Shown piece after piece: positions 12,509-56,308 of a DNA stretch of 64,000 nucleotides (within the stretch, counting starts at the first letter, position 1; every line of letters begins with the position of its first letter). The DNA lies in the NCBI RefSeq assembly GCF_963675165.1, contig NC_087392.1, positions 389,001-453,000 on the forward strand, read 5' to 3'. This stretch comes from Halichondria panicea. Its lineage: Eukaryota; Porifera; Demospongiae; Suberitida; Halichondriidae. Below the pieces are notes generated by a model. That model made no database searches. It saw nothing but the letters and a program-made list of their open reading frames with translations, and was not told where the DNA came from. A program made the position numbers and the translations under genes.

Positions 12509-12512
12509 TTGT

Positions 12513-19470: not shown

Positions 19471-19512
19471 AACTGTAATCATCTCATCTCGATCGCAGCT
19501 AGACTCTACTAG

Positions 19513-29029: not shown

Positions 29030-29244
29030 CGGTGAGGCAGTTTAACGGAGTTGAATGGACTTGTTTTCCAATATTTACACACATTTTAGCTGTGAACATT
29101 TGGATCTGGCAACAAAGCCATCAACTACATGTATTACAATGTACTGTGTATATACCGTATCTAGCGGAATCATCGAAAATTCAATACTCATAATTATTTG
29201 TACTGTGTGGGTGTTGACTCATGTAAATTACTAGAAATAGTGGG

Positions 29245-29302
29245 TGTACGTAGCTGTGGCCCCACGCCCACTTCCGCTCATAATCGCTATAAAAGAGCGG
29301 GC
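29245..29302 (+). promoter_or_regulatory. core promoter of the intact Cys-rich/RRM gene
   Basis: GTACGTAGCTGTGGCCCC, CACGCCCACTTCCGC and GCTATAAAAGAGCGG in that order, ending about 85 bp before the start codon at 29385. Conserved with 3391-3450 (-), 10573-10617 (+) and 47975-48034 (-), while the flanking DNA differs more. CTTCCG is an ETS-type core and CACGCCC a KLF/Sp-type core by consensus; factor identity is inference. Confidence 0.75.
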
Positions 29303-29384: not shown

Positions 29385-31280
29385 ATGTCTGCCCTATGCT
29401 GCCGATGCAAGACCGGGCTCTGTAGCGGGTGTGTGTGTGCCCAGGGGGGCACACCGTGTACAAATTGCAATAGCCAAAGATGCGAAAACCAGGTTAGTCT
29501 CTATCCATGTTATTATAGTTAATACTCAGTGTTGTGTGTGTGCATGCAGTGCTGGTCCCACTAGGGTTGTCATAACTCAAAATTATACACTTGTTCTCTG
29601 GTGCATGGTCTATATAGTGGTCTATAAAATTACTAGTGGTCTATTATTTTTTCTCGTGTGCATTGGCTTCGTTTCGTAAATGTTTGCCTCCTGAGAATAC
29701 TGCTCAGAATAAATAATAAAACTATATACAAGTGTGCAGGATTAAGCTACCACTATACTACTTCAATGTATGCAGACCTATATCATTCAGTATGATTATA
29801 TTGAGCTGTGTAAGGCTATATAGGTGAAGCCCTGTTTAGTATATAATTATGGCAGCTGTTTTTATGCACTCGCATCGTATACAAGACTGAACCAGTTATC
29901 ACTAGGTGTTTGTAGTACAATAGTACGGAAGCATGTACTTGATTTAGTTCATGTGATTCCTCCAATTCCCTCACAGGCCACTCCTAACCCACCAGCCCCA
30001 CCTCTAATGCTGGGCCCAATGGCCCTGACTCTTAATATATGCGTGAGTGTCCAGTAGTATCATATAGAGTGATATATTGGAATCGCTTGGCAATCGCCCC
30101 TATAATGAAGTATATTATTGGCTATAACATACTATTGTTCATATCCACATGCAGTTAGCAACATAAAAACAACCATTAGCACGCCATTCGTTATGTATGT
30201 CTGATTGTAGTTATTACGTGGCATGCATGCATGTGCTCTGCACTATTACTTGAGTTCATGTCATTGACCCCTGCACTCCCTCCGGTCCACAGGTTCCCGC
30301 TAGTCTGTCCACAATACCCCCTCCACCTAAGAGGAAACGTTCAGTGAGTGACCATGTGCACGCATACATGTATTATATGCAGTTATGCTCGAATTCCCGA
30401 ATTATATATAGTACAAGATTGGCTATTTGTATAAATTCAAGCCGCGCAAACGATTTGTTTTATGTTGTATCGGCATGCATGTGTGCGTGTTCTATATCTA
30501 TATCTGTATCAGTGGTGTATGAAGCAATTTCACAATAGGAGGGGGGGGCTCGAGTTTTTTAAATGGAAAAAGTACGCCTATCAATAGGTCGACAAGATGC
30601 ATTGGAGTTGTGTATAACTTTTGAGTCACTGTCTCACATGAACAAAGCCAACAACAACACTATACTACTCTAACACAGAAATCTATAGAGAGCTAACCAC
30701 TATATATATATACGCATTCACAATGATATTCATGCTCGAGGAATCGTATATATATAATTATATGCATGTTACTATTTTGGAGGATAATATTTAATAATGA
30801 GTTGAATATACATCATGTATAACTGGTTCCTCCACCCCCTCACAGACGGCATCCAGCTCAGAAATATACTTGGGAGGCCTCCCTCCCCGAACCACGAAGG
30901 GGGAAATAAGAATTGCCCTCCAATCCTTTGGAAAAACCAGCGTGAGTCATTTTTAAGTGCATGGTGGTTTGACAAATTAACATGTGCTTTACTTCTCTGT
31001 TGTGCAGTCGGTGGACATCCCTGGGCGAAGGGAAGGGAGGGGTTAGTACCATCCACTCACAATATTGTATAAGTAAACCATTATACTTTCTGTCTCCAGG
31101 GTTTGCCTTCGCTAGGTTTTATAAAAAAAGCTCTGCAAAAATGGCGATAGAAAAAAAATGTATATTAATTAAAGGACAAAGTGTAAGTTTTTAATTTGTT
31201 CCTGTTTTTCGAATTTTGTGTGATGTGCTGGCACCATGCATGCACTTTGTCTGCAGGTGGAAATAAAAAAAAAAGAGTAG
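29385..31280 (+). CDS. intact Cys-rich/RRM protein gene, 153 aa
   Basis: Seven exons with consensus borders: 29385-29492 (MSALCCRCKTGLCSGCVC..., 36 codons), 29977-30042 (PNPPAPPLMLG...), 30293-30343 (STIPPPPKRKRS), 30846-30941 (SEIYLGGLPPRTTKGEIRIA), 31008-31041 (SVDIPGRREGR), 31100-31182 (GFAFARFYKKSSAKMAIEK), 31257-31280 (VEIKKKE-stop). They sum to 462 nt with no stop. Residues 1-36 form a Cys ladder (CC-x-C, C-x-x-C-x-C, C-x-x-C). Residues 37-75 are a Pro/basic linker. Residues 76-153 are an RRM with RNP2 IYLGGL, RNP1 RGFAFARF (exact consensus) and an EIKKK beta-4 end. The alpha-1 to RNP1 distance is shorter than in typical 80-residue RRMs. Introns are phase 0 except the one before RNP1 (phase 1). 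Family role unknown to me; RNA binding follows from the RRM, metal binding by the Cys part is inference. Confidence 0.85.
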
Positions 31281-31859
31281 TGACTGTAGTGTATGTACTT
31301 GTGTAGAGTAATTGTATTTCTAATTAGAGTCTTTGTGTGTAGTATGTGTGTGAATTGATTTTAGCCAAATCACTCAAATGCTGTCTACATTGTGTTGCAT
31401 GCACTGTACACAATATATAGAACCTCTCACAAGAAGGTGCATGATCACCATGATGGCAAGTAGATCCCCTCCAACCAGCTGGTTCAATTGTGAACACCCA
31501 CTCACTGACATACACCACACTTGCCAGTAGCCACCTTTGACCCAATAACGAACAACCCCTCCGAACTGGATGATGACTAAGCATCATGTCAGCTTTGGGA
31601 GTTCGGTTCTGCAAATCGATTCACTCTTCTTAACCTGAAGGCATTGAGGTGCATGTGTGCTGTCCTGCCGATATTTCAGGTATAGTCAATGGATGTATAG
31701 TTATTGGTATTTCGGAGCCAGTCATGCACGCTCATTGCAGGGACGACTCAGTCCCTAGTAGTACCGAGCATATTCAGTGAGGCCTTGTTAGATTTGTATA
31801 TCAGTATTTATTATGACTATATCATCACTTTATCACTTGAAGCCACTATATATACACCG

Positions 31860-32522
31860 TGTACGTGAACTGGTACAATAGTAGCCAGTTCAACCCCTGG
31901 CCTCCACCTCCGGGAGCTGAGCATGACCTCCACTTCTGGATGAGGACCGCCTCACTGACTTCCATTCTCATCTCTTGTTTAATGATGAAAAAAGAATCAT
32001 CTTCTGTTTTGTACCTAAAGTGAGTGTGTGTGTGGAGGGAGTGCTTTAGTAGCTATCTTAATTATTGTGATTGTCGATAACTCGAGTAGGTATCTAACAT
32101 ATGTATTATATAGTAATAGTATCATTTATCCAATGTCAAAATGTTTATGATTTTTTAGAAATAGGCCTTTCAAATGATGTGTTTTAATCCAAAATTTAGT
32201 CGAGACCATAATTTGTCATTAATTTTTTGCCCTTGGATCAATTTTCCATGGTATTGGGAAAATTGGCGAATCTCTTTCTAAGCTTTCCGAAAATCAGAAA
32301 ATGGTTGAAATTGGATTCAAGTTATGGCAGCTGAAAGAGTCCTTTAATCATTGAAGGGTTGACCATAATTATTTCAACATCCATAACCATTGATCCAATG
32401 TCAGCAATTTCCCCCGGCCCTCTCCCCTAGGTTGGTTGCAGGAACATGAAGCGTCTCATGCTATACATGAGTGACAGTCTACCAATGTACACTCTGGACT
32501 GTCCCTGGGTAGACTACAACAA
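31860..32522 (+). pseudogene. carbohydrate sulfotransferase fragment (CHST8-14 type)
   Basis: An open segment 31927-32019 ends LLFNDEKRIIFCFVPK at a GTGAGT donor. An exon 32431-32522 begins VGCRNMKRLMLYMSD after a CCCCTAG acceptor and ends at GTAAGC. Joined, they read CFVPKVGCRNMKR, the 5'-phosphosulfate-binding signature of Golgi HNK-1-type sulfotransferases (V-P-K-x-x-C-x-N-x-K-R). These enzymes transfer sulfate from PAPS to glycans. A stop lies just upstream in the first segment. No transmembrane exon and no 3'-phosphate-binding or C-terminal exons follow before TPRKB-like exons start at 32796, so only a core piece survives. Confidence 0.7.
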
Positions 32523-32795
32523 GTAAGCTATCATAGGCTATAATTATTAGCTGCAGCATTGGAAGATGTAATTATATGTCATGCACAACATGCAGGTACA
32601 TGTAATAAAATATGCCTAAAATATTCCCAAGTTTTAATATTCAATTTCCTGACAAATTTGCTTTTAATATCCTAACGTGCGATTCTAGATGGTTATTTAT
32701 GTCTAGAGGTGGTTAGTACCAACCACCACCACCAACCACCATCACCCACACATGCACACACTCCACACCCACACACACCCTCACACTTCCCACAG

Positions 32796-33668
32796 GTTGC
32801 TAGTACGTTCCACGTTCTGTGTGCAGTGTACAAAGCTGTAGTGGCCAGAGAACCAGCTGAAAACTAGAAGCGTCTACTCTGAAATAATTTTCTCTCTCTC
32901 TCCTTCAACAAACGTAAGCAGTGATGGTGTATGACATCATAATTATTATGTACAGATCAGCGAATCTTTCAAGAAATTGGGAATTAAAGACACTTCACAA
33001 AATATTCTACTTGTTGCACTGCATTCAAATGAGGCTGATGCAAAGGTATCTCTTATTCAGTGCAGATCACTTATCAGGATAAGATCTTATCCTCACTCTC
33101 TTCTTCTGAAATTTATAAAGTGTACCAACGGAACAAAAGTTATGGCCGTTCAAAGATGTGGTATTAACCCACTCTCTTAATTCTATACAATAATAATGAT
33201 TAGTGATAATGATTGTTTTCTCATTCAGGCGTCTGATTTATTGGGCATGATTGAGGGTGACCTAACACCATTGCAAGGCATCCACTCGTGTAATAATACA
33301 CAGAGTATAATCAAGGTAACCATCTCAAAGCACACACCACAAAAATGTTTCGTAAGAGTTTTTGCCCAGTTTCTAAGTATTTTAATGTATATAGTTATAC
33401 GCAACACAAGGCGTTATAAAGACCTACACTTTTACTAGAACTTCTGCATGTCTTCATCAGATATCAACCAAATTAAGCTAGTAACGCGAACAGTGGAATT
33501 TATAGTCACTCACACCTTCACACACCTTCACACCCACACACCCACACACACACACACACACACACCCACACACACACACAGGAGTACAAGATTCCTCCTG
33601 AAGAGCTGGTGATATGCTCACTAGAGAACTGTGTAGTTACTAGGCTAGTCATCAAACACGTTACCTAG
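32796..33668 (+). pseudogene. TPRKB: TPRKB (Cgi121) homolog, 5'-truncated and frameshifted
   Basis: Four exons: 32796-32913 (FHVLCAVYKAV ... SVYSEIIFSLSPSTN), 32956-33045 (ISESFKKLGIKDTSQNILLV), 33229-33315 (ASDLLGMIEGDLTPL...), 33582-33668 (EYKIPPEELVICSLEN... to TAG). They align with residues of about 50 to the end of animal TPRKB/Cgi121, a regulatory subunit of the KEOPS complex that supports tRNA t6A synthesis. The STEIIFNLSP-like and ISEAxKKFG-like blocks are the diagnostic parts. The first exon carries an extra C near 32855, which splits the frame between AVYKAVVARE and LKTRSVYSE. I find no exon for the N-terminal 50 residues between the sulfotransferase piece and 32796. Probably a pseudogene; an assembly error could explain the one-base slip but not the missing 5' end. 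Confidence 0.75.
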
Positions 33669-34158
33669 GTCACCACCATTAATGTGTTATTGTTTTATTG
33701 TGTGGTGGCTATAATTATAATCATTATCATGAACTCTTGTCATTATCAACACCCACACGTTCTTTTCTTCCACTTCTCTAGATCTAATGGAACTCTATAA
33801 ACTTGCATATAGATGCCTTTTGAGTGGGCCAATAATAATGATGTCTCTATAATTATATAATCAAGGCATATAACTTTTTCAGTGCAGTTGGCAAACAATG
33901 AACGATTATAATTATATGGAATGGGCCTTGAATGGACTTGTTTTGCGACGGCATGTACTTGTAGCTACTTGTGCAATTTTATGTTGTGTGACGTTCACTC
34001 TTTTACCTATGCTAATATTTATATAGCAAGAATCACAATACGTACATGTACACGATTGTTTCTCTTATAAATTATTAGCAAAGCAATACTGCCTAATGAA
34101 AGACAAGTAGTACTCGCTTCCTAATCAAAGACAGTATAAGAAGTAGGACCCACCAATG

Positions 34159-34219
34159 CTGATAGTGCACTAGATTTTAATAAGTATTTAATACTTATTA
34201 AAATCTAGCACTATCAGCA
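34159..34219. repeat. hairpin, about 29-bp arms
   Basis: GCTGATAGTGC(AC)TAGATTTTAATAAGTATT pairs with AATACTTATTAAAATCTAGCACTATCAGC with a one-base loop and a two-base bulge. It lies just before a minisatellite. Confidence 0.75.
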
Positions 34220-34259
34220 TTTATACTAAGTATAAAAAAAAACTACTGGCCAGTAGCAA

Positions 34260-34432
34260 CTAAGGAACTACTACCACTGTAGTAGGGCTGCTGACTTTCA
34301 AATGAAAGACAGTAGGGCTGCCACCTAATGAAAGGTAGGAGGGCTACCACCTAATGAAAGGCAGTACGGCTACCACCTAATGAAAGGCAGTACGATCTCC
34401 TGCTGACTATCACAATGAAAGACAGTAGGAAG
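34260..34432. repeat. minisatellite, about 29-bp unit
   Basis: CTACCACCTAATGAAAGGCAGTA-type units repeat about five times with drift. No coding frame. The region 34440-35330 that follows holds a TAGCCTCGATCTCAGGCCG repeat end (34551) and a block with tandem GCAGAGGGGGTCA; no gene seen. Confidence 0.7.
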
Positions 34433-35593
34433 TGGATGACCAGTTTCCCGACCATGCACTACAGCTCCGGAGCCCCGGTTTATAACCCACACGCTACATG
34501 GGTGAACTGCAACAAGTCAATAACGTAGGAGGAAGGGAATCTTTGAGCCTCGATCTCAGGCCGCACTGAAGATGAGGCCTAGTATAATAGCCTAGATATA
34601 TCTAGCTAGCTGAGCACAGAAAAAACGTACTGATTATAAAGTATCAGGTACAGTGCTACGATCGAAAGAGTGGAATAATACAGCAAACAGAGAAGAGGCC
34701 TAAAGATTCTAAGGTACTGAACTGTATTAGGCTGGTATTTTATATAGAGTACAATGTATATAGTTACCTGTACTCACTCTATTGTGTGTGTGGCTGACTG
34801 GTGTCAGTTCTCAGTGAGCGCCCCCTCAAGGTTCAAGGTCTGGGGGGTTAAGGTTCATGGTTCCCTGCTAGGGGTCAACGGAGGTTATCAGAAATCAGCA
34901 GAAAGTGAGTTAACGTTGATTTTTAATGTTGCGTCTCGGATCCCACAAGAGGCTAGGTTACTTGACCTTAGTTATTTTGCAGAGGGGGTCATTTTGCAGA
35001 GGGGGTCAAATTTTCTTTCGCCAATTTTGCGCAGAGATACAGCGCTTTTGTGTTAGCCTCGATACCATCAAGCGGCTTGTTCTCGAGGTCAACCCACGGC
35101 TGGCCTCAATACTTGTATCTCTGCTTCTGAAAAAAAATTTTTTTTGACCCCCCCTTGAATAATAATTAAGCTTATAGTAGTGTGCTGGAGAAGTTCGGAG
35201 AAATCCAATTAGTGACCTTAATTATCTACAGTGGTTCAGCCTTGATCCTCTGGTCGCGTCCTAAATGGAGGTAAATTTAGCCACACCCTAGCCTTCATTC
35301 TATGGCTACTGGAAAGCTAAGTTTTGAAATCGAGGCAGTTAGACTAGGTGGAGGAGCTACCTCCATGTTTCAACGTTCAAAAGAAATTAACATTGTGGCA
35401 ATACAGTAGTATAATTATACATACCTCCAATTGTATCGATCCTTCACAGTGGTCTCTCCAATACGTTTCACTTTCAACATCATCCTGCAATAATTATTTC
35501 TTTTCACATCAATTCTTTATAGTACCTACAAAGACTTACGACCACCATTTTGAGGTCATTCCAAGAGCTCTCTCACTATCTGCAGTCCAAGTC

Positions 35594-36961
35594 ATGCCAA
35601 AAGAGAAAGGGGCAAGGAAAACAAAACGAACTGGGATGGTATCAAGTGGAATGAATTAGGACAAACTAAAGACTGGAGGTATACATTCCAACTGTGTTAT
35701 CAACTGATACTGATCACATGTACTCAGATTATGGACCAATAAATTTAGCTCGTGGAATGTGAATGGAATCAGAGCATGGATAAAGGTATCGTTTCCTCCA
35801 TGAATTACAATTATTAACCACCGCATTTTATACACTGTGTACAGAATGGTGGTCTGGAGTACATTGCAAGGGAAGACCCAGACATATTCTGTGTACAAGA
35901 AACCAAGTGTATTGAGAAAGAGCTTCCTATGGTAGGACAGCCACTGTACACACACACTCACCCCCCCCCACACACACACACACTCACCCCCCCCACACAC
36001 ACACACTCACCCCCCCCACACACACACACTCACCCCCCACACACACACACACTCTCACACAATCCCCCTCCCCCCACACACTCACCCCCCTCCCCAAACA
36101 CTCTCACACAATCCCCCCTCACCACACACACACTCACCCACACCCACACACACACACTCTCACACAACCCCCCTCCCCACACACACACATTCTCACACAA
36201 CCCCCCTCCCCACACACACACTCTCACACAACCCCCCCCACACACATACACACAGAACCAGCTCGGTATTCCTGGCTACCACGTCTACTGGCACTCTGCT
36301 GAGAAGAAAGGCTACAGCGGTGTGTAAAAGAAGATAGGTGCCTTTTGAACCCACTAACGTTAACGTTTTCTATATGCATGTTTTATTTTACATTTTGTCT
36401 CTGAACAAACAATCTGAGTTTGCGTTCCCTTTGTGTACAAGCATGTGTGTATTCTACGTGCAGATTTGAAGAACCCCAAGACAAACGCAAAGACAGCTGG
36501 TTTCACGCCTGAGGAGAGACAGGACTTCACAGAGCTACTGGAGGAGGGTTTTGTGGACACCTTCCGTCACCTGTATCCCGACCTCGCTGGAGCATACACT
36601 TACTGGTCATACAGGTTCAACGCCAGAGCCAAGAACACTGGCTGGTGAGTGCTCCCGCATTACTCTAGAAATAGAGTGTAATTTCAGTGTGTGTGAGCAA
36701 ACTGTACAGCTACAGCGGAACCATTATTTTTTATATAACAAAACATTTGCCATTATAATTATGTAGGAGGTGGGCTTTTTATATCGTAGATGGTTAGGAG
36801 TGGCCGTTAAGGTACATTACTGTTTAATATAAAATCATATTTATTTTTCTTCAGGAGACTGGATTATTTCGTGGTGTCTGAGCGGCTCCTCCCTCATGTG
36901 ACTGATTCGTAAGGAGGTGTTTGGGAGTGATTATTGCCCATTGGTGATTGGACTGACTGAC
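35594..36961 (+). pseudogene. APEX1: AP endonuclease pseudogene (APEX1-like)
   Basis: Inverted paralog of the intact gene at 60587-62487. Surviving exons: 35594-35678 (start MPKEK fused directly to the NWDGIKW region, out of frame), 35728-35785 ([13 protein letters not shown]), 35845-35931 ([20 protein letters not shown]), 36256 to about 36336, 36464-36644 ([19 protein letters not shown]) and 36855 onward ([17 protein letters not shown]). Lesions: deletion joining exons 1 and 3 with a frame slip; loss of two exons and parts of their neighbours after KGYSGV, removing the Tyr and Asp-x-Asn active-site segments; a 7-bp deletion after VTD creating a stop; and the final catalytic His codon CAT changed to TAT in GSDHCP. 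The intron after QETKC has expanded into a 300-bp CA/C-rich tract. Confidence 0.93.
35949..36253. repeat. CA/C-rich simple repeat in pseudogene intron
   Basis: ACACACTCACCCCCC-type units fill the intron that in the intact gene (61691-61802) is a GT tract of about 50 bp plus a short tail. The Thr/His/Pro-rich frames here are not genes. Confidence 0.9.
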
Positions 36962-37116
36962 CACGCCCACAAGAGAATGACGAACACTGAATTGATTGAC
37001 TATCACTAGCATTTAGCCATTATACAACCCAATGTTTGCATCAGATTTAATAACATAATAACAACAGTAATTAAGATAATACAAAGTCATGAATAATACG
37101 TGCAAACAAAATTTAA

Positions 37117-37435
37117 TTACAGTGTACAAGTATGCTTCTGTTTATCATAATTCAGACATATTGCCACTGCCTTCCTGACACATCTATTGGCATCCTCCTC
37201 GTCCTCACCATGCACCACCACCAAGCAGCTGCTGGCCACCTCTTCCAGCAACCCTGGTCTGCTACTTGTGATGCTGCAAGCACAATATTAGACACACAGC
37301 ATAAATTAATTATGATTACAAAGAGAGCATGCACAGCTCTCACCCGTAGTGTCTTGGCATGTTCTACTAGCCCCAGTATCATTTGGGGTCTGCCCTCACG
37401 GTCAATGGAGTAGATAGAGGCCGCATCAGGTAGTA
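37117..37435 (-). CDS. possible exons of an unrecognised gene
   Basis: Reverse strand: a segment 37344-37435 between acceptor-like and donor-like sites reads LPDAASIYSIDREGRPQMIL... to KTLR before GTGAGA. A second segment, 37117-37273, has a frame GLLEEVASSCLVVVHGEDEE... CVRKAVAICLNY to a stop. The phases of the two do not match with the acceptor I can see. Composition looks coding, not repeat-like, but I do not recognise the protein. A further candidate reads VDLDLNGWRTYGVNLGCSLR near 37695-37750. Between 37760 and 38690 I see nothing I can support. Confidence 0.3.
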
Positions 37436-38699
37436 CTATACAGCTACATGTAGTCGTCGCAGCTTGTCATTGGTATGAGTCCTGCATGAGAGGGGGACCC
37501 GTGAATATGATAGCATGCTACCATTAATAGGCAGTACCTATATAATTATTATAAAGAATGCACAAACACACGAGAGTTGTTGTTATAGTTGTGCTTTATC
37601 ATGTAGCTCTAATATCTGTCGTACCATACTCCTGTACTTGCATGTCCAACAACTCCTGGCTCTCTAATCCGCTGCCTGATCTCCACCCACCTTAGGGAAC
37701 AACCTAGATTCACACCGTATGTCCGCCACCCGTTCAAATCTAAATCAACCTGGGAGACCCCCCATAATTATAAGTTATCAAAAAAACACCTCAGACTACG
37801 GAAGATGGCTTCTTCCACCTTGACAATAAAGATCTCTATATACTAGACTGACAAACGACCCCACATTAGAAGCTAGCAGCCACATAAATTAGTGTGTATA
37901 TTATCATCATCCTCTGTCCAGTAAACACAAGTACTCACGGACCCTCACCCCCAAATCCCTCCAACCAGAGATAAAGTAAGGAAAGGGATTGGCAATGGTC
38001 GAAAAAATGTGACTATCCGTGATGCGCTACGTCATCGACTTTTTTTCATCTTTTGTAGCCTCCATTTATAGCTAAAAGTAAAAAAAACATGCTTAATAAG
38101 GAAATCAAAATCAAGAATTTATGCAGCCTAGTTGATCAACAGAGACGCAACAAAACTAATATAACACTTTCTCGTCCTTTACAGCCTCCATTTTAGCATT
38201 TTGGTTAAAACCATACAAAAGAAATTATAACCAAGCAGGCCAGTTCGATCGTCAACATAGACACAAATAAGCAGGATCTGTAGGCAAAACATCATTAATT
38301 TTGGCTACAGCAGTGCTTCTTAAAAAGGGGCACAGACCAATAATAACTAGTTTTCAAGCTCTAGAGCACCACAGTCAATTCTTCCACGCTTGGACTTCAC
38401 TTTAAATAAAGCACAGGACACGTGTAGCCTTACTATATGCAATTCTAAAGTCTCATGAGACTAATAACAAACTAAAAGTAATATTACTTCATTTCGCGGG
38501 CGTTGTGCCAGGAAATAGATGGTTGAGAGGAAATCAACATGAAATCAATGTGAAATGATCACGTGAGTTACTCCCGTTGCCAATCCCTCTATTACTCTAT
38601 CAGTCTGCTCCAACCCACCACTACGTGAGTATTACGTTCCAGCGTTAGCTATACACAGTTCTTGCTATCTATGATAGACGCGACTCTATATATGGGTAG

Positions 38700-39177
38700 A
38701 GGCTGACCGTGCACACTTGTCCACAGGTACGTGGAAATTAAAGTATAAGAATCAATTATGTATTATCCAGACAGTCTCGATCTCAGAAGTGTCGTCGATA
38801 TCCTCTAACCCAGCCACAGAAACCGTGAGGGCCATGATGTAGTGTTTCGTATTGTTATAATTATCAAACGGCGGTTCTAGTGTGTCATCATCTGATGGGA
38901 GTGGATCGCGGGGTTAGTACAGTGTACCATCCACTCACAATAATGTGGCCATGTCTCCAGGGTTCGCGTTCGTAAAGTTCAAAACAAATCATCAGCAGAC
39001 AAAGCTATTTCCCATCCCTCAGCACCGGCCATATTCATGGCATCAGGATCTGCTAGTTGCTACAGATGCAAAACTGGGTCCTGCAGCGGGTGTGTGTGTG
39101 TGTGTGTGTGTGTGCCCATGCAGGCAGGCACTGCACAAAGTGCATCCCTAGCACAAACTCAAAAAGCACCAACAAGG
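38700..39177 (+). pseudogene. scrambled family fragment with expanded TG run
   Basis: A spacer piece ending GAAACC/GTGAGGG (38820), a short exon with GGAGTGGATCGCGG (38897) and an RNP1 exon near 38962 (GFAFVKFKTNHQQ, frame then lost) are followed by a Cys-rich exon starting at 39037 (MASGSASCYRCKTGSCSG). In this last exon the TG run encoding Cys-Val-Cys has grown to twelve units from five, shifting the frame; the tail and GTTGGTC donor are still recognisable. The order is reversed relative to a functional gene. Confidence 0.65.
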
Positions 39178-39735
39178 TTGGTCTCTATAATTATATATAT
39201 GTATATATTATTATTCATGTTGTTATATAGCTATAGCTGATTGTGAGTGCATGTGTGCTGGTCCCACTAGCTCATGATTCATTGTTCTCTTGTGGTCTAC
39301 TTGATGTGTATTTGCGTACACCTAATATGAGGGAATCCATATAAGTGTACCAATTACAGGGCCGTACATAGCTTAGGTTTGTAGGGGTGGAAAAATAACA
39401 GCTGAAAATTTTTCCTAAAAAAAAGGTCAACTGTTATTTCATATCCTCTGAGTATGGCAACTTCCAACTTGCTATGGCACTACTTATTAGACAAGGTAGC
39501 TTGAGCTAGAAAGGTACTCCTACTTCCAGAGGCGCAGTGGAGCTCAGATTTTACCTAAAAAAAAGGTCATCACTCGTTCTCAACAGTCAGCATGTGCATC
39601 AGATAGCCCTGCCCACATCTCAATTTCATGACATCATTCAATCGATAAAAGCATTGGGCATGTTTAGATCAGTAATTTTGGCAGATCTAGAATGCCAGGG
39701 GGGAAACTGCCCCCCCCCGTCTATATGGCCCTGGA

Positions 39736-40220
39736 TTAAGAGTGAGGCAAAAGTATATGCTAGCATCCTAACGCACTACTTCAATGTATGCAGACTTGAG
39801 GGCTGCCTATATATATAATACAACACAACATTCTGTATTAGTATGATTGCGTATCATTATAAGGAAATACTCTATATATAGGTGAAGCCCTGTTTGCGTA
39901 TCGATAAGCAAACACAATGCAAACTCACAATTATAAATCACAAACCTCTTTGAACTAAGAACAAGGATATTCGATTAGTTAATGTCAAAACTAAATACTG
40001 CCTTCTATATATTTGAATACAGAGGGCAGTATATAGATTAATTGTACCTCAAGTGCAGCTCAGCCACTGCACAAGTGAGAAGAGCCCTCCCTCAGTGCTG
40101 CATGCCGTTGATTTTTGCTTGGTCCTCCATGAATGGCATCAGAGAACTTGAGTCTAAAAATACTGTACCTGTGAGAAGAGAATAAAGTGAAAGTGGAGTA
40201 CTTGCATGTATACTAGTCAG
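39736..40220. repeat. direct copy of 20.78-21.25 kb
   Basis: Almost identical to 20781-21250, starting at AGAGTGAGGCAAAAG. The homology resumes after insertions at about 41695-41790 and 42395-42740, so this is a third copy of the 20.8-22.8 / 52-53.9 kb unit, split by the hAT-like and other insertions. Confidence 0.75.
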
Positions 40221-40309
40221 GGTGTCATACAGGGGCGGAAAGGGGGGATACCCCCCCCATAGCTCCAATTTCCCGCCCTTTTTTGCATTCAGGTACTAGG
40301 TTGTATGAC

Positions 40310-41178
40310 CAGGGGCGGATCCAGGATTTAGGGAAGGGGGGTTCTTACTTCTTGGCCGCGCAAAGCGAGTGTCACTCGGCGCATAGCGCCAAAATTTTTG
40401 GCTGACCACGCCCATTAATCAACCACATTTCCCTATATCTGAAAGAACACAAGGCAAAGCCATTCTCATGCTCTGGGGATAGTGATTGCACTTTCTTCTC
40501 TTTCAGGAGAGCACCAATGTCCATTGGCTGATCCTCAGCGGAAGATCTCGTTGCTTGCTTCGATGAACACGGAGGGGTGATGGAGGTGGCTGGTGGTTCC
40601 AGTGGAGAGATAGTTGTGACTGGAGGAGAGATGGTTGTGACTGGAGGAGAGACGGTGGTGGCTGGAGGAGAGACGTTGATGACTGGAGGAGAGACGGTGG
40701 TGGCTGCATGGAGGAGAGACGTTGATGACTGGAGGAGAGACGATGGTGGCTGGTGGTTCTCTTGAAGAGGAGACTGCATGGCTGTAGACTTGACGCATCA
40801 TCTAGATTATTATATTAGTCAATATAATTATTATAGAATTATAATTATCTATACAGTGTCTATCATTCAGTATGCAGTGCCATGAACTCTCCCTTACCTG
40901 AAACTTTACTCTTCTTAAACCAGGAGTCAATGGAGGATTGCAATCTAGACCTTTTGTTAGGATTCATGGCCAGGCTCAATTATCACTGCGACCATGTGGC
41001 TGGATGAGTCAATATAGCCAGCCCCACCCTCACATTATGCAGAGAGAACTTTGTACCCTATTGTCATGACAGTAAGCTAGCTAGCTAGCCAGGTCCTAGG
41101 TGTATTAAATATAAAGTATCAACTTAGTGGAAGGGTAGTTCGTACGAACCCAACGAACTACCTCTGGATCCGCCACTG
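40310..41178 (-). mobile_element. truncated hAT-like transposon, 869 bp
   Basis: Termini CAGGGGCGGATCCAG and CTGGATCCGCCACTG form a terminal inverted repeat with one mismatch. Flanks share ATGAC on both sides. The uninterrupted sequence is present, inverted, near 23.99-24.03 kb (GTTGTATGAC joined to TGAGTGTCC), which proves insertion. On the reverse strand exon 40898-40967 (MNPNKRSRLQSSIDSWFKKS) resembles the N-terminus of TTF/hAT transposases. The second exon, 40372-40799, is a Pro/Ser-rich minisatellite (Ser-Pro-Pro-Val-Thr units). No zinc finger or hATC dimerisation domain is present, so it cannot encode an active transposase. Confidence 0.8.
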
Positions 41179-41794
41179 ATGACTGAGTGTCCATATAGCT
41201 GGCAATTTTACACAGGGTATTAAAATAACAGTTTACCTTTTTTTTTAGCAAAATGTTCTGGTTACTTTTCTTATTTTTGCCCTCTACTTCAAAATCCTGT
41301 ATGAAACCCTGCTAGTCTTACTAGTCTACAGGGTTTTGCAGAAATAGAGGGTGTAGAGCGTTCCTTATATGGATATCTAATGTTTACACATTGTGGTGTC
41401 ATAATATACACATTGTGGTGAAATGCTAAGTCTGATTGGGAAGCAACACAAAATGGCTTTTTTCTTGTGAAAAAATATCAAGGCATTATTTGGGATATAA
41501 GATGGAGAATTGCATCAGACAGAGCTGCTTGGACTATCTTATCAAAGTGTTGCTGAGAATCTTCCATCAACTGTTGTAGAATAGTGCCATGCTGACTTAG
41601 TCTACAACTTTATGGTTGACCACAGATAACCATATAAGGAACGCTCAACGCAAAACGCTTTTTTGTGGATATTGCAAAGATTCTGCAAAACCCTGTATAA
41701 TTTCATGCAAGCACAAAGAATTCGGTGTTCACTCAAGCATGCAAAGAGCTAATGGGACCACAAGCTTACTACTCTATAGCAAACCCACATACCA

Positions 41795-42395
41795 TGCATT
41801 AGCCTCGATTCCAGGCCGCTAAGAGAGGGCCTGGTATCGACTGTTTGCGCATGCGCCACCTATTACCCAGAAAGTGGGTAATTCGGATACCATTGTATTT
41901 TGCTCAGTAAAACAATGACGTCACAACGAACGGAAGTGGATTGAAGAAAGTGGATAGAAGTGTGATTGTAGCCCGTGTGATAGCATTCTAATAGCTACCC
42001 TTAGCCTACTATGTTAACAAAGGACTCACAGCCTGCAACAGTGTGGATAACAATCCTCTGAACGGAGGGGAAGGCTGACATGGACAATAGCCTATATGGA
42101 TAGGCCACGCCCATCTGACACTAACCTTGGTGAAAGTCGACTCTATCAGAAAGAAATTGCTGCTGTAACCAATACAGCTCTGTCTCTAGCTATATAGCTA
42201 GCTATATAGCTCTGTGTCTGACTTTATGAAGAGTATTCTTTGTCTGTATATGTTATTCAGGATATAATTCGGGTAAAAATTCAGTTTAATGGGAAACATC
42301 ACGGGAATATTATCCAATAATTTTGCGCATGCGCAAGCAGTCAGTAGCAGGCCTAATTGTTTAGGCCTTGTGAAGGAGGCTAACCATGCATAAGA
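41795..42395. mobile_element. possible foldback element with TAGCCTCGATTCC end
   Basis: This block interrupts the homology to 21.3 kb. It starts TTAGCCTCGATTCCAGGCCG and ends AGGAGGCTAACC. The starting motif recurs at 23.88, 25.94 (inverted), 34.55, 42.81 and 44.63 (inverted) kb. No coding region recognised. Confidence 0.45.
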
Positions 42396-43175
42396 CACTA
42401 CCTATACTTGTCTGTTTGGGGTGATATAGTGTAAGGGGTGCTGTTCATGCACATACAGAGGTAAGGCCTGGGACGAAAAGGATATATACACCATAGTTGC
42501 ATGCACATTGGCAAAGCTTTTTAACCACAACATATTCTAGTAACACGTATACCTCATTTCCCTGATTTAAGTGCTTTCAACATTGTCTGAGTGTACAGTC
42601 ATCATAAAACTCCCTCTGCATGTGCAGCAAGTGGTCTGTGATCTTGGTTGTCATTTGGGTTGAATCATCTGTAACAACAATAACAACAATTGGTTATCCA
42701 ATTGCTGCATGCATTACAGAATGCAGAATACAATGTAACAAACGGCATAATTCAGCACACATAATTATTTTATGCATAATTAGATATAATTATGTACACT
42801 ATTTACTAGCCTCGATTCCAGGCCGATTAAAATACGTATTTTAATCGGTTGCTTTGTTTGGGTTGGCTTCCATGTTGTTTGTGAGTTGGAAGTACTTCTT
42901 TCTTGAGTAGCACATGGTCAGATCTACGCCTGCGCATTAGAGATGTCACAAAAAAAGATGTCACAAGGGCCGGCCTGCAGCCCAGCCCCACCCCTTCTTT
43001 TTTTCTGCAACATGCATGGTACACAGCAAGACTAATATAGTTGATGGTTTCTTGCTTCAAATGTTTAGAGCAAAAGAATACTCAGAGAACTGATCTCTCC
43101 ATGCAGCTGGCTATTTATACTATTCAGGGGACGGTATCTCATCGGATGTTTGTAATATATACAACCTCAAATCAT

Positions 43176-43211
43176 AGATTATACTGTACACTCTGGAGTG
43201 TACAGTATCTA
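43176..43211. repeat. hairpin near AGTGTACAGT
   Basis: ATAGAT(TAT)ACTGTACACTC, loop TGG, AGTGTACAGTATCTAT. It lies within the 42.5-43.3 kb repeat arm and is not present in the 24.5 kb partner. Confidence 0.55.
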
Positions 43212-43990
43212 TGCTCAAATTTAGCTATGAAATAAAATAGCCCGAAACAAAAATCACTGATCTAAGAACACCATCAAACATAACTTTTTAGCTTTGAAAG
43301 ATTGGACGTACAGCCACTCCTATATATCTTACTGGTTACAGCATTATTTTTTGTTTTAAAAATTTATTGCTTTTGCTGATTGGAAAATGGGGTTCTGAAA
43401 TCATCATTAATTTTGAGAGCAACAATCGTGCAGACATTGTATAATAGCATAGGTATAGTATTAAAAAAATCAACATCACACATTATAAATTATTGTTCTC
43501 TTTGTACCAAGTGTGTAAATGCAAAACAAGTCTATTCGAGGCCCATTCCATAATTGTTCTGTTTGCCAACTGCATTGTTGTACAATATCTTGTCAGTAGT
43601 ATAGCTCAGAGAAGTCATTTCTTATACCCTCGTCCGAGCAGTTGGCTATCTTGTTGAGACCACCCCTCTTTAGTTCACCTGGAGAGAGAAGAGGTAAACA
43701 ATATATGCATGCATGGGAGGACGGTGTAATGCATGTGGGAAGGTAATGAAGGTGTTGTGTGAAAACCTATAGTATTAAGTATTATGTACTTATAAGAAAA
43801 GTGAGATTTATGACTAAGATTGAGCCTTGTGGGGAACAACTGGGGTTAGAAATTGGATAGTTGCAGCAATCATATATAATTATGAAGACATACTGTGCTA
43901 TAAAATTGGCCGCTGCATGTTTCCTATACGAATCTGTTAGGTATATATATATATATATAATTATACATGTTATATAATTATTATAATTAT

Positions 43991-44176
43991 TGTATAGCGG
44001 GTAATTTTCGTGGGGGTAAAAAATTCGTTATCAAGCTGACCTACATGAAAATTTCCCCATGAAACGTAGGCATGGCTTACCATAACGCATGCAATGCAAA
44101 CAGTATTTATAGTCAGGAAAATCACCGTTTTCCATAAACGAATTTTACCCCATGAAAATTACCCGCTATACGGTAT
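43991..44176. mobile_element. MITE family B, copy 2
   Basis: TGTATAGCGGGTAATTTTCG ... GAAAATTACCCGCTATACGG, with GGGGTAAA and TTTACCCC just inside. Complete second copy of the element at 3531-3722, interior in opposite orientation (GTAGGCATGGCTTACC). Confidence 0.8.
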
Positions 44177-44302
44177 ATAGTGCATATACATGGCTTCAAA
44201 TTATGTCGTAAATATATATTAAAGGTCTCAGGCACACTTCAACTAATTATAAGTGTATATACTATAGTACATAATAAATAGTATGTCAGAAATACCGATT
44301 TA

Positions 44303-44620
44303 CTACCTCCTGGACCATGCAGTCAAGCATGATAGTGCAGTATATACACACGTTTCCCACGGTATACCCCTCAGAGTAGGACATGGTACAGCTTTAAAGT
44401 ACCTGAGAAAGCACAAAAAGGTGAACACTTACCAAACACATCATTATTGACAGTCTTATGTATATATAATAATATACCTTCAAGTTGAGAAGAGTGAATG
44501 GATTTGCAGACCTCCCAGAGCTGATAGGCATGTCAACCAGAAACTTTCTCTTATTATGTTCTCCTTTATAAGTACCAGGCCTATATAGTTGTTCGCCTAT
44601 ATAACCATATATAAAAGCGA
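44303..44620 (-). CDS. possible exons of an unrecognised gene
   Basis: Reverse strand: KRKFLVDMPISSGRSANPF continues to LLNLK before GTATAT near 44478. A second segment near 44314-44400, between a CTCAG acceptor and a GTAGTA donor, is open in two frames, so its reading is uncertain. No domain recognised, no start or stop exon found. Could equally be chance frames in non-family intergenic DNA. Confidence 0.2.
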
Positions 44621-45087
44621 ACATGCACTCGGCATGGGATCGAGGCTAGTTGCATATATATAGGCCGTCGCCCGATATAGCGATATTTTGTTTCGACAAT
44701 TAAGTGAATCTCCTTAGTACATGCATGCCGCTGGTGTGTAATCTATCCCCCTCATCACATTTGGAGGGGGTGTGCATGAGTCGCTATTGCGTGCATTTGT
44801 CCAAGGTATACCTATATATATACACGCATATATAATAATTATAGGCCTATAAAACAATAATTGTGTGGATGCAAAATATAACGGCTGGATGTACTGGAGG
44901 GCCGGGGAGTATCAACCACTATCTGCCACATAGGGGGTGATTGTCTTCTTGTAAAAGGTTCTGTATATGCATATAATTATTACATACAACATGCATGCAT
45001 GCATTTTGAGTGATTTAGCTTGGCATCATAATAATTATATATAGTATTATAGGCAACATATGCACAGACAAACATTAATAAATTGAG

Positions 45088-47847
45088 TTACTTTTTTATT
45101 TTCCGAATTGAAACCTGTGGACAAAGTGCATGCATGGTGCCAGCACATCACATAACATTCACAAAACAGGAACATGCACATTAACTTACATTTTTTCCTT
45201 TAATTAAAACAAAATTTCTTTTTATTGCCTCTTCATAAGATTTTAAATTTTCAAATGTAGCGAAGGCGAAACCTGGAGACAGCAAGTATATAATGGCTAC
45301 ATTATTTTGAGTGGATGGTATACTGTACTAACCCCTTGGTCCACTCCCCCCAGCAGGGATGACGACACACTATATACAACAGAGAAGTATAGCACAAGTT
45401 AATCGATAGAACCACTATACCCTTAATAATGACTCACGCTAATGGGACCAAACTGGCGGAGGGCCTGGTTGATGTCCTCTTTCGTTGAACCTGCAGGCAG
45501 GCCACCTACGTGCACCTTCTTAGATTTACTCTGTGAGGGAGTAGAGGAACCAGTGACATGAACTCTATATAGTTGAGTCAATGATATATATTCAGCTCAT
45601 AATTATTAGCCTATAATTATAGTATACACACGATTCCCCAAATTAATGGAGCCTCGGCTGTCAATTCCTTCAGCCCTATATATATATATATATATTGACC
45701 TGACCACAAAACGCTTGCAACACACATTGCATGGCTGTATAACTAACATAATACGGAACACTACATGCAATTCTATATACATGGCCCTCACTGGGACTGT
45801 GGTGGCTGGGACCGTGACTGGGACTGTGTTAGCTGGGACTGTGGTGGCTGTGACTGGGACTGGGACTAAGACTGGGACTGTCTGTAAGGGAGCAAATGTC
45901 AATGACAACAGTCATATAAAATTATGTGTATTTACGAGAAGTGTATAGACTTGGTGTGCATGAATTAATAATACTATATAGCACTCACTATGGTAACCAC
46001 AACCACTTCAAGTATACAAGGCGCTAACAATAACAATGCTGAAAGGACATGCATGACTCAGGGATAATAAAATCACTTATTCATGTAAATTTCTGGATTT
46101 CACAGTTTGCAGTTTGTGACGTAGGTTGGACAAGAAGGCCTACTACGGTTTTTAAGTGGAGTTGCAGACTCTTCCTTGCTATACAGCCTATATAAAGCTA
46201 TAGCTCTTTCAGCTAGTGCGAAACTTTATTTTATTTTTGTGTATAAATATAGTAGATCAGTTTATAGAGGTAATAAAGATTACCGAATGTATACACTGTA
46301 AATAAGGATGTGTGGTTTTGACGCAGAGTGCGTGGCTATTGTGGCAAACGTGCGTTTTTTCTTGCATTTTTTCCTGATAGTTGCCACAATAGTCACGCAC
46401 TTGCGTCAAAACCACACACCATTTTTTACAGTGTAGCCACACCTAATTCCGCATCCTGAGCGTGATATACATGCATACACTATAACTACTGCGCGCTAAG
46501 ACGCTCGGCAATTACATATACATGGTAAACATCTATATAACGCAGAAACAAAAACATAAAACAAATGTTATAATTATTGATAATGTTTGTGGGACTAGAA
46601 CATCTTTGAATCCATACAATCTGGTATATAATTATTATAACAATTCGGGAATTCGAGCGTGCATAACTGTAATACAGAACACTCATGCATGCATATATAA
46701 TTATATATATACACATGCACATGCGCATGGTCACTCACAGCACACCTCCTCTTAGGAGGAGGGACAATCACTGATGGTACCTGTGGAGGGGGTGCAGGGG
46801 TCAATGACATGTGGACTCAAGTTAGTGCAGAGCATATACATGCATGTGTGTACCTAATTGGCCAATAAAACTGCATGAAGTAACAATCATGTGTAACGAA
46901 TGGCATGCATGCTAATAAATTATTTTATGCTGCTAACTGTGAATGTGAAACAATAGTTATAAATGCTGGTATTATAGCCAATAATTATACATAACACTAA
47001 TTAATTATTATAGGGGCAATTGCCAAGCTATTCCACACATGCATATATATAGCTAGCACATGCATGCACTCTAAGATAATATATTGACGTGACACTCACC
47101 GCACATCTTTTTACTCGGAGTGCCATTGTGGCAGGTACGACGCTTGTGGTGGTGAGGGCAGTGGCTGGAGTAGGCTGAGAGGAATAAGTGCATGACATGA
47201 ACTAATCAAGTATAATAATTATACCGTATAGCGCGAAATTTTCGAGGCACTTATATTTCGTGGATTGGCCTCTAAAAGCCATTTCGTTGCACAATGTTCG
47301 CGGAATCAGACTGCTAACCGGAAGCCACGCCTTAAATCTTTGCACGTTATAACAGGTAATTTAACAATTTTCGTGGACTTATTTTTGTGTAGAATTCTAA
47401 CCCACGAAATCCGTGAAAATTAAGCCCCTCGAAAATTTCGCGCTATATACGGTATACCATGACGCTTCTGTATTATATATTATAGTATATGCATGGCTAG
47501 TAATCCAATTTTATTAGCCAAACCACAATACATGCTACTTTTTAATTCTGTGCCTCACTCTGTTACTTATATGGAATTTTAATATGAGCAGTATTCTCAG
47601 GAGGCAAAAATTTACGAAACTGTTGTGCTTACTGCAAATGCACATGGGAAAATGCAAGTAATCAGTTATAGCTAGACCACCAGAGACTCTACACTGATCG
47701 AGTGAATTAGCTATATATATAATAACATGGATAGAGACTAACCTGGTTGGTGCACCTGCTTCCAGGGTGGCAGTTAGTACAAGGTGTGCCCCTCTGGGCA
47801 CACACACAACTCTGGCACGAGCCTTTTGTGCATCTGCAACAAGGCAT
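45088..47847 (-). CDS. intact Cys-rich/RRM protein gene, 153 aa (183 with spacer exon)
   Basis: Reverse-strand exons: 47743-47847 (MPCCRCTKGSCQSCVCAQRG..., 35 codons), 47100-47174 (ATALTTTSVVPATMALRVKR CA), 46739-46780 (VPSVIVPPPKRRCA), 45438-45530 (KKVHVGGLPAGSTKEDINQA), 45333-45369 (CVVIPAGGSGPR), 45190-45272 (GFAFATFENLKSYEEAIKR), 45088-45114 (VSIRKIKK-stop). The total is 462 nt without stops. An optional phase-0 exon 45792-45881 of Thr-Val-Pro repeats may be included, adding 30 residues. RNP2 is VHVGGL (the usual aromatic is replaced by His); RNP1 is GFAFATF. The long intron after 46739 hosts a 142-bp MITE. MITE family A copy 5 sits in intron 1. The promoter at 47975-48034 matches the family module and the ATG is the first after it. 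Confidence 0.82.
46293..46434. mobile_element. foldback MITE with ACACTGTA termini, intronic
   Basis: ACACTGTAAATAAGG(A)TGTGTGGTTTTGACGC... pairs with ...GCGTCAAAACCACACACC... TTTACAGTGT. The arms are over 50 bp with short gaps, around a small centre. It is inserted in an intron of the gene at 45.1-47.8 kb. ACACTGTA ends resemble other non-autonomous DNA elements; family not assigned. Confidence 0.8.
47222..47454. mobile_element. MITE family A, copy 5 (intron 1 of intact gene)
   Basis: TACCGTATAGCGCGAAATTTTCG and CGAAAATTTCGCGCTATATACGG, about 22-bp terminal inverted repeat, nearly complete interior. It lies between the Cys-rich exon and the first linker exon of the intact reverse-strand gene. 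Confidence 0.85.
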
Positions 47848-47974: not shown

Positions 47975-48034
47975 GTCCGCTCTTTTATAACAATTATGAG
48001 GAGCGGAAGTGGGTGTGGGGCCACAGCTACGTAC
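47975..48034 (-). promoter_or_regulatory. core promoter of the intact reverse-strand gene
   Basis: Reverse strand reads GTACGTAGCTGTGGCCCC, CACACCCACTTCCGCTCC, TTATAAAAGAGCGGAC. The CACGCCC box is CACACCC here. The ATG at 47847 is about 130 bp downstream of the TATA motif. Confidence 0.75.
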
Positions 48035-48339
48035 ACCCCCATTGCAAATTTACATGGGTTAACACCCACACAGTACAAATACATGAGTCAACACCCACAT
48101 GCATGCACACAGTACAAATACTGTATATTTTCGTATGACTGCCTAACAATATTCGTACATGCAATTCAGGATAGGATAGTGACGTTGAACCTATTGCAAT
48201 AATTTTCGATGATACTCTGTAACACAAAAATTTCTACCATACCTGCTAGATACGGTACACAGCACAATGTAATACATATAGTTGATGGCTTCGTTGCCAG
48301 ATTCAAATGTTCACAGCTAAAGTGGGTGCAAGTATTGGA

Positions 48340-53860: not shown

Positions 53861-54729
53861 TAAAAATGTATTTCGTGAGGAACTATAATCAAATATTACT
53901 ATAATCAAATATGCGCAATAGCTAAGAGGTTTGGATGTTTGGTTTATAATTATGAGTTTCATGCGCATGCATCTCTTTTAGCAGGCCAGCATTCTTTGTG
54001 TTCATGGCCTGATACATAATTTTCGTCAAGTCAATGTCAATAATCGTGTAAGGTTTCTTCCCACAAAGATATTACTTGCATGTAATCGTAATTGTATTAT
54101 TAAATTAGTGGGCGGGAACAAAGCATATAATTATAGATATAATATAGGACGTGTAGTTTGTTAACTATCTATATATATCATTCAAGTTCTGTGAAGTGAT
54201 GCATGTGCATCACTTCATAGCTCTAATTACTATATAAATATATAATTATGAGTATTGTGGCCTTCAGGCGTTTAATTTGTGTATAGAAACATACCTTCGC
54301 AATTTTTCGACAGAAACCACAGCAGAGCGAGGGTATATAAATAGAATAGTGGACTACAACTTCTGAAATGATTAGGGGCTGTGTGGTGTGGGGGCGCATG
54401 GTTTAGGTTAGTCTCTGTTATAGTTAATTCACTCAGTGTTATGACAGTGCATACAGTGCTGGTCCCACTAGCTCATGAGTTGTCATATATTTAGAGCGTC
54501 CACCGTGTGCTTGACGAGGTCTGTGATTCACTTCTGAGAAATTTGGCTAGGTCTTCACCATCTTGAATGTTCTTGATATCTCCAGCTCACCAGCTAAAGG
54601 GAGTGTACATTTTGTGGCACCTATAATATAGATTTCTTTTCATAACTAACCACCTCATTCCAGGGAGGTAGTTGCTAAATATACATACTTTTTCCTTTAA
54701 TTATTCTTAATAGCCTTCTCAGCCGCGGT

Positions 54730-54990
54730 CACACTTCACACACACTCGCTGCTGCAGGACCCAGTTTTGCATCTGCAGCAACTAGCAGATCTAGATGCCA
54801 TGGATAATTATGGCCGGCCGGTGCTGAGGGATGAGCTTGGATAGAGACTAACCTGGTTAGTACACCTGCTTCTTGTAGCAGGGAGGCAATTTGTGCAGTG
54901 CCTGCCTCCCTGCTTTAATTATAATGCTTTTAGCCTCATGCAATAGCCTTCTCTGCTGCTGCTTTTGTTTGTAAAGTAGCAAACCCGATC
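54730..54990 (-). pseudogene. Cys-rich exon pieces fused to RNP1 piece
   Basis: Near 54740-54800 the reverse strand holds a Cys-rich 5' end (ATGGCATCTAGATCTGCTAG, CAAAACTGGGTCCTG). Near 54850-54910 it holds a 3' end with a GTTAGTC donor. Directly against the latter lies an RNP1/alpha-2 piece (TTTGCTACTTTACAAAC, AGCAGCAGCAGAGAAGG). The order is scrambled; nothing translatable across it. Confidence 0.55.
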
Positions 54991-55105
54991 CCAGCCCTAT
55001 GCATAGCTGTGACCTGACACATGATCACCTCTTCTATAACGCCATGATCTCATTTATATACTTATTATTGCAAACCCATGGGATGGGATAATTCGATCCC
55101 AGCCC

Positions 55106-55905: not shown

Positions 55906-55976
55906 AGGGCCGCCTTCACATCTTTAATAAGACACCCCGGGGGTAAACCCCCTAAAAACACTTTCTTGAATGCTTT
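55722..55976 (-). pseudogene. RRM pieces, GFGYVTF subtype
   Basis: RRM-N exon 55881-55976 is intact (KKVFLGGLPPGCLIKDVKAA, 32 codons, CATGCAG acceptor, GTAATC donor). The RNP1 exon near 55722-55796 reads GFGYVTFKDDGAAKKGIEKK, then a stop, with no final exon. The short exon between them is unclear. This is the third RNP1 subtype (compare 19397 and 56935-57003). Confidence 0.55.
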
Positions 55977-56308
55977 CTGCATGTGAGAGAGTGGAGAGGC
56001 TAGGACATGAACTCAAGTAATTATACTCATAATTATAAGTATATACCGTTCTCATGACGTCCGCTTTAGTCCGTCTAGAGCATATGGATTTCTACAAGCC
56101 GATGTTTGTTGGACTGCAATTATAACATCATTTTATAACCTTTTAATTATAACACTAGAGCAAATTGACTTGGAAAATCGATTAATAATACGCACTCAAT
56201 CTGTGGAAAACCCCATGAAAACATGCGGGTAAAACTTACATTTTGTCCTTTAATTAATATATGCTATACTTCTCTATTGTGCAGTGCGTGTTTTTATTAA
56301 TAGCCTTT

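Follow-up and report, generated by a model that had tools for sequence, protein, structure and literature searches.

What makes the exons of a duplicated gene change while the introns between them stay alike? The question is raised by a 64-kb stretch of the genome of the demosponge Halichondria panicea (C16:389001-453000; assembly of 131 Mb in 39 contigs), referred to here as 'the window'. It houses a family of small genes that join a cysteine-rich (Cys) domain to a single RRM. A preliminary description of the window attributed the diversity of this family mainly to the shuffling of exons. That case is weaker than claimed; the stronger signal is point-level change, and it is confined to exons. 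What the window shows is better described as divergence limited to exons, within a Cys–RRM family that is related to a retroelement.

Gene 1 (29385-31280, + strand) encodes 153 amino acids in seven exons. Its introns are all GT-AG, and five of the six are in phase 0. Gene 2 (47847-45088, - strand) encodes 183 amino acids in eight exons, again with GT-AG introns throughout, six of the seven in phase 0. In each gene, the sole phase 1 intron lies between the second and third RRM exons (R2 and R3). The two share one layout: an exon with nine cysteines (E1), then proline/threonine linkers with a basic motif, then one RRM spread over four exons (R1 to R4). The gene 1 product is identical over 153/153 residues to the H. 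panicea protein P0003 (LOC135349625), and that of gene 2 is contained in P0001 (LOC135349619). Both genes splice cleanly. The preliminary description read their architecture, as well as the bias toward phase 0, correctly from the raw sequence; its seven-exon model holds for gene 1, whereas gene 2 has eight exons. The features of gene 1 are listed here together with gene A, the full-length copy in the window that is most closely related to it:

29195..29300, + strand: promoter block, with TATAAAAG at 29288; matches the upstream block of gene 2 at 86% identity over 109 aligned columns
29385..29492, + strand: exon 1 (E1), Cys domain with nine cysteines; residues 1-36 of P0003
29977..30042, + strand: exon 2, proline-rich linker L1
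30293..30343, + strand: exon 3, linker L2 with PPPPKRKR
30846..30941, + strand: exon 4 (R1), first RRM exon; Pfam RRM_1 match and predicted fold
31008..31041, + strand: exon 5 (R2), followed by the phase 1 intron
31100..31182, + strand: exon 6 (R3), RNP1 and the second RRM helix
31257..31280, + strand: exon 7 (R4) and stop
about 7911-5832, - strand: gene A (LOC135349621 X2); two Cys exons, the first of them additional, then linkers and R1-R3

Between gene 1 and gene A, 64 of 444 exon positions differ (14.4%), against 33 of 1397 intron positions (2.4%; p=2.5e-19). A second, independent alignment with other limits gave 47/313 versus 50/1707 (p=3.7e-15). Exon by exon, the differences are 15/102 (E1), 7/66 (L1), 6/48 (L2), 16/93 (R1), 0/34 (R2), 19/83 (R3) and 1/18 (R4). 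For introns 1 to 6 they are 6/465, 6/236, 18/498, 2/66, 0/58 and 1/74, and for the 3' flank 11/119. The limits of the changed stretches lie near splice sites. Insertions and deletions (indels) in E1, L1, L2 and R1 measure 6, 6, 3 and 3 bases, and 9 of the 14 indels in introns are not multiples of three. Silent positions are affected too: 10 of 59 fourfold sites differ, versus the same 33/1397 in introns (p=3.7e-6; the fourfold count and the all-exon test concern gene 1 and gene A only). With silent sites in excess over introns, selection on the protein cannot explain the divergence by itself, and we rule it out as the sole cause.

Copies elsewhere in the genome display the same imbalance. Contig C1 carries gene-1-like copies, L054, L055 and L056; a deletion in L1 and intron 2 of the C1 copies limits these comparisons to E1, L2, R1 and R3 versus introns 1 and 3-6, with L1, R2 and R4 omitted. 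Gene 1 differs from L056 at 50/325 exon and 35/1153 intron positions, from L054 at 47/325 and 71/1112, and from L055 at 54/313 and 37/1175; for gene A and L056 the counts are 48/325 and 34/1136 (p<=1e-5 in each case). Lineage-specific changes in exons exceed those in introns by factors of 5.2, 4.7 and 3.1 in three lineages (p=2.7e-7, 6.3e-6 and 7.7e-4). R3 of gene A is 76-77% identical to R3 of gene 1 and of six C1 copies; nothing in the genome comes nearer to R3 of gene 1 than gene A does (77%), and the first intron of gene 1 is matched by six full-length C1 copies at 90-96%. At the level of DNA sequence, then, we regard exon-limited divergence in three lineages, at silent and replacement sites alike, as established.

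The features of gene 2, all on the - strand, are:

47977..48081: promoter block, with TATAAAAG at 47989; similar to the gene 1 block
47743..47847: exon 1 (E1), Cys domain
47100..47174: exon 2, linker L1
46739..46780: exon 3, linker L2 with PPPKRRC
45792..45881: exon 4, valine/proline/threonine linker L3, with few homologous pieces elsewhere in the window (mean depth 0.6)
45438..45530: exon 5 (R1), Pfam RRM_1 match
45333..45369: exon 6 (R2)
45190..45272: exon 7 (R3), Pfam RRM_1 match
45088..45114: exon 8 (R4) and stop

Here, R1 and its surroundings differ from the C1 copy L053 at 12/76 exon versus 6/260 other positions (p=4.8e-5), and one pair of R1 fragments gave 16/87 versus 19/398 (p=7.1e-5). 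The arrays of exon fragments in the window, compared with C1, are mixed overall: one part has the excess (36/502 versus 28/816, p=0.003; 27/408 versus 18/725, p=0.001), and another part has none (9/397 versus 17/380; 12/382 versus 15/382). P0001 consists of 65 additional N-terminal residues followed by the whole 183-residue product of gene 2. Those 65 residues are the translation of 48042-47848 (- strand), including the TATA block that is 86% identical to that of gene 1. Because they translate a promoter block common to gene 1, the annotated start of LOC135349619 probably lies too far upstream. Blocks resembling these promoter blocks occur also at 10526-10616 and 3451-3366.

Are the exons of such genes simply prone to mutate? 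Three RRM stretches of two other duplicated loci served as controls, and none has an exon excess (7/144 versus 52/1038, 4/87 versus 43/360 and 2/117 versus 5/112, the second count covering all DNA outside the RRM match, in unmodelled genes). These loci are two clusters of near-identical RRM matches, at C12:5728091-5815594 and C4:6314762-6418057. Within the window, three recent pairs also lack the excess (0/103 versus 9/400, 1/199 versus 8/614, 3/193 versus 7/589). Summed, the pairs within C1 give 31/1836 versus 79/6271 for L052/L053 and 25/1266 versus 76/6185 for L054-L056, ratios of 1.3- and 1.6-fold, and between L056 and L054 the direction is reversed (exons 8/325, introns 56/1094). An intrinsic hot-spot thus has little support: the excess is missing from the recent window pairs, the ratios within C1 are low and R2 is almost unchanged. 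Contrary to this are L054/L055, with one stretch of exon excess at p=0.02, and L056/L055, taken up below. Constraint on the introns is likewise unlikely, because C1 copies whose R3 is broken retain introns close to those of gene 1.

A different account makes the exons old and the introns young. Following an early split, selection would keep the exons apart, and repeated gene conversion would homogenise the introns, a pattern found in genes of the major histocompatibility complex. Over the 133 codons up to the frame shift in R3, the Nei–Gojobori values for gene 1 and gene A are pS 0.253 (silent) and pN 0.125 (replacement), and for E1 alone 0.411 and 0.080; a high pS with a lower pN looks like age with constraint. 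Conversion is plausible, too, because the copies are clustered, repeated and rearranged. However, introns of 58-74 bp are nearly identical between exons that differ by 17-23%, which calls for conversion tracts of ~60 bp ending at splice sites, and introns 1-4 differ at broadly similar rates (1.3-3.6%), as under one duplication age. We consider this account rather unlikely, if the best of the alternatives.

Many members of the family are in decay. Searches of the window with nhmmer (E<0.01) found 29 matches to E1, 23 to R1, 8 to R2, 27 to R3 and 13 to R4. In the reversed window, none of the five exons matched at E<0.01, and R1 matched four times at E<=1; the exon models were refined on the window itself, so the faint matches are less sure. 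The high copy number noticed previously is therefore real. The main groups of copies, beyond the genes above, are:

1007..4291, - strand: partial copies with Cys and RRM exons, several frame-broken
9356..20237, mainly + strand: exon-fragment array, parts of which recur on C1 in unchanged order
54687..59745, mainly - strand: second exon-fragment array
C7:455000-463500: L069, a third family site, where R1, R2 and R3 follow one another in order and the Cys pieces are degraded

Open Cys exons in the window include those at 3252, 15028, 16746 and 26578; many other fragments are truncated or frame-broken. The fragments retain pieces of intron, and some are fused inside exons. A broken R3 is common to the gene-1-like copies L054-L056. 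Several C1 copies, like the window, carry an R1 whose broken frame reads IREPSVVLAAP; duplication must therefore have continued in copies that were already broken. This bears on the swapping of exons proposed in the preliminary description. In its favour, the annotation of gene A joins two Cys exons, and LOC135332060 on C1 has four annotated isoforms (X1-X4) that differ in their RRM exons. Many of the 'swapped' exons, on the other hand, are fragments broken inside exons and copied onward in unchanged order. In our own reading, the C1 models LOC135342483 and LOC135332060 (X1-X4) appear to keep the Cys domain and linkers, with most of the RRM skipped or in another frame. The family is, to judge from its copies, young, subject to birth and death, and largely decayed.

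An ordinary decaying family, in which the exon excess reflects relaxed constraint and chance, would account for the many broken copies and for the mere 1.3- to 1.6-fold ratios within C1. But relaxed constraint lifts exons to the rate of introns, not to three to six times that rate; the probability for gene 1 and gene A, given above, and the lack of excess at the control loci also speak against it, and we hold it to be very improbable indeed.

Other sequences lie among the copies. In gene-2-like copies on C1, R1, R3 and R4 form one continuous stretch (L053:3557-3750, L052:2819-3001 and L043:1457-1638). As processed retrocopies, the C1 gene-2-like copies do not convince: intron 6 is missing at about the splice points, with one A fewer than in gene 2, yet R2 and its introns have gone with a break inside R1, and this is no proof of cDNA. 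Repeats of 170-230 bp, 83-93% identical, occur at 265-452, 1307-1535, 8073-8303, 27064-27314 and 47176-47447. One copy (47227-47447) has 40-nt inverted arms, which may mark these repeats as a small non-autonomous DNA transposon. Beside family copies, a 40-bp unit is repeated in tandem in two arrays (4965-5128 and 8624-8780). Longer repeats unrelated to the family, about 80-96% identical and some inverted, join 20775-23024 with 39735-40218 and 51828-53845, and 35609-37053 with 60536-62132. No tRNA and no Rfam family matched in the window.

The fragments might be more than debris. Fragment arrays, or error-prone cDNA, could rewrite the exons patch by patch, and since such donors have little or no intron, the change would stop at exon edges. 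Fragments are indeed commonest for the variable exons (E1, R3 and R1) and scarcer for R4 and R2. Derived bases in R3 match fragments more often than expected by chance (share 0.410 versus 0.205; 0/2000 shuffles), as do neighbouring pairs of them (10/13 versus 5.6, p=0.016); in E1 the match is weak (p=0.043). Homologous pieces cover exons and their edges at three to four times the depth of the intron interiors, although the ease of aligning exons biases this measure. R1, however, has no fragment match (p=0.24), and the pair test fails for E1 (p=0.12) and R1 (p=0.21). Polarity is doubtful, because fragments do not carry the supposed ancestral base at R3 sites more often than the derived base. 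The best genome match to R3 of gene 1 is still gene A, and R2, which sits between R1 and R3 in a cDNA, is unchanged. Rewriting of this kind is, we judge, quite improbable.

What, then, do the proteins resemble? Pfam RRM_1 (PF00076) passes its curated cut-off of 20.7 bits in both, at 35.7 bits in gene 1 (E 7.8e-9) and 40.7 in gene 2 (E 2.2e-10). The structure model of gene 1, built from a 22-sequence alignment, has the order of strands and helices of an RRM, with 67 residues, in the RRM part, at pLDDT >=90; its Cys and linker parts are without confident prediction, and P0001 predicted alone (mean pLDDT 44) was set aside. Both genes thus belong with the RRMs by cut-off match and fold. The best neighbours are hnRNP A1, A2/B1 and DAZAP1 among PDB sequences, and the first Foldseek matches include DAZAP1 RRM2, Musashi-2 RRM1 and hnRNP A1. 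Membership of hnRNP A/B or DAZAP1, which have two tandem RRMs, fails: hnRNP A1 matches through its two RRMs, whereas each sponge protein has one RRM_1 stretch, in four exons behind a Cys domain. The PPPPKRKR of gene 1 we take to resemble a nuclear localization signal (NLS).

The Cys exon comprises 36 residues in gene 1 and 35 in gene 2, and others reach 40-45 when read from the first ATG, in keeping with the 34-45 reported earlier. Eight Cys exons matched no Pfam family at E<=10, and their profile matched no PDB sequence. Their cysteine spacing may resemble that of the Tesmin/TSO1-type CXC (TCR) domain; with no Pfam match and no PDB relative, membership is rejected. Whole proteins match RRM families only, in Pfam and in NCBIfam, and public models of the Cys–linker–RRM protein bear only the name 'uncharacterized protein'. 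Neither in these databases nor in the public protein searches made is there a named family, or a described whole architecture, with this combination, just as the preliminary description supposed. Of 121 proteins compared, 3 have the strict cysteine ladder (P0001, P0002 and P0003), and P0004, the annotated protein of gene A, has a looser form of it; the four are H. panicea proteins. Outside this sponge, no relative with both Cys and RRM parts was among the matches listed (best 120 of 418), in searches that rest on short shared words and may miss distant relatives.

Within the H. panicea genome, the Cys domain has a counterpart. A search with one Cys exon also matched open frames of 614 (E 0.0019) and 486 amino acids (E 0.0035). 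A search with the N-terminus of one such open reading frame (ORF) gave 38 matches at E<=0.01 on many contigs; ~10 were exons of the family itself, and the open frames reached 1088 amino acids. Two elements examined have ORFs of 1086 and 1054 amino acids (the second from a TTG), with RVT_1, the only Pfam family in them, above cut-off (E 2.3e-12 and 1.5e-12). Such reverse-transcriptase ORFs with an N-terminal Cys domain, to which P0002 (LOC135348337, H. panicea) belongs, recur over many contigs, several as long open frames:

L061:736-3996
L062:4039-875
L050:2515-674

Their C-terminal motifs may be akin to those of R2-like retrotransposons, which have a restriction-like endonuclease at the C-terminus. 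Compared as profiles with hhalign, the two sets of Cys sequences score 97.6% (E 3.9e-12), and common ancestry of the gene-family domain and the retroelement domain can be regarded as demonstrated on this comparison. In both, a Pro/Thr-rich stretch follows; the element is a single open frame with reverse transcriptase and no RRM. Genes 1 and 2 are not themselves members of the element: only RRM families match, and the protein has no reverse transcriptase. This kinship is a better lead than the sensing of metals or redox state suggested previously for the Cys part. The gene may have taken the element's Cys domain and now interfere with the element, each evolving against the other; the clear homology, and the order of Cys domain and Pro-rich linker in both, fit such a brake. 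But transfer could have run either way, the element capturing a host exon, and a contest between proteins leaves the change at fourfold sites unexplained. We think it decidedly improbable.

The explanation we rank first, with moderate confidence in that ranking, is conflict in which either the mature RNA or the protein is the target. Open members, which share the TATA promoter block, would encode a small protein with an N-terminal Cys domain, probably metal-binding and of common ancestry with the domain in the retroelements, and one hnRNP A/DAZAP1-like RRM behind Pro/Thr linkers with their NLS-like motif. Such a protein would be nuclear and RNA-binding. Conflict would repeatedly favour change in exons and leave introns to drift. 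There would be two candidate opponents: the retroelement, or small RNAs to which the fragment arrays of the family give rise. If the exons were escaping such small RNAs, or were caught in some other RNA-level conflict, both the confinement of change to mature RNA and its presence at silent sites would fit, speculative though this is. That a young birth-and-death family is engaged in intragenomic conflict of this sort we put forward tentatively, as somewhat short of an even chance.

Several observations weigh against it. From gene 1 to gene A and to the C1 copies, R2 hardly changes (0-1 differences in 34 positions), which is unexpected if all mature RNA is under equal pressure. Relative to gene 1, gene A gains a base towards the end of R3, which puts the last part of its RRM out of frame, and lacks a base in R4; together with the broken R3 of the C1 copies, this means that part of the divergence may postdate loss of function. 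Within C1, L056 and L055 differ at 15/313 exon versus 14/1152 intron positions (p=2.6e-4); linker L2 accounts for 8 of these 15 exon differences. The opponent, moreover, is a guess. Bolder, and in our estimation improbable, is a system in which conflict rewrites the exons of the family as nucleotide sequence, so that silent sites change too. The means would be patches donated by the family's fragment arrays, error-prone cDNA or small-RNA escape, and introns and R2 would be spared.

Whatever drives it, the family offers a compact and clean case in which to test how coding sequence diversifies in an early-branching animal, and the Cys domain common to the retroelement makes that element a concrete suspect for the opponent. 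Among the literature titles found, none concerns this Cys–RRM family or its pattern of exon over intron change. In Drosophila simulans, the selfish Dox genes are young and multiplying; they encode a nuclear protein, and hairpin-RNA loci descended from target copies silence them (PMC10292708). The likeness to the sponge family lies in young, multiplying genes and arrays of fragments; small RNAs, drive and silencing set the Drosophila system apart. Snake venom families offer another comparison. Introns of venom PLA2 genes reportedly change less than silent sites. One account has introns of two clustered venom genes 88-99% identical and stretches of 413/414 amino acids 85% (PMC4963849), and a second describes fast-evolving coding sequences with a KA/KS excess at replacement sites (PMC6062510). 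Both systems comprise clustered paralogs with very similar introns and fast coding change; the excess in venom genes is at replacement sites, whereas in the sponge family silent sites are raised as well.

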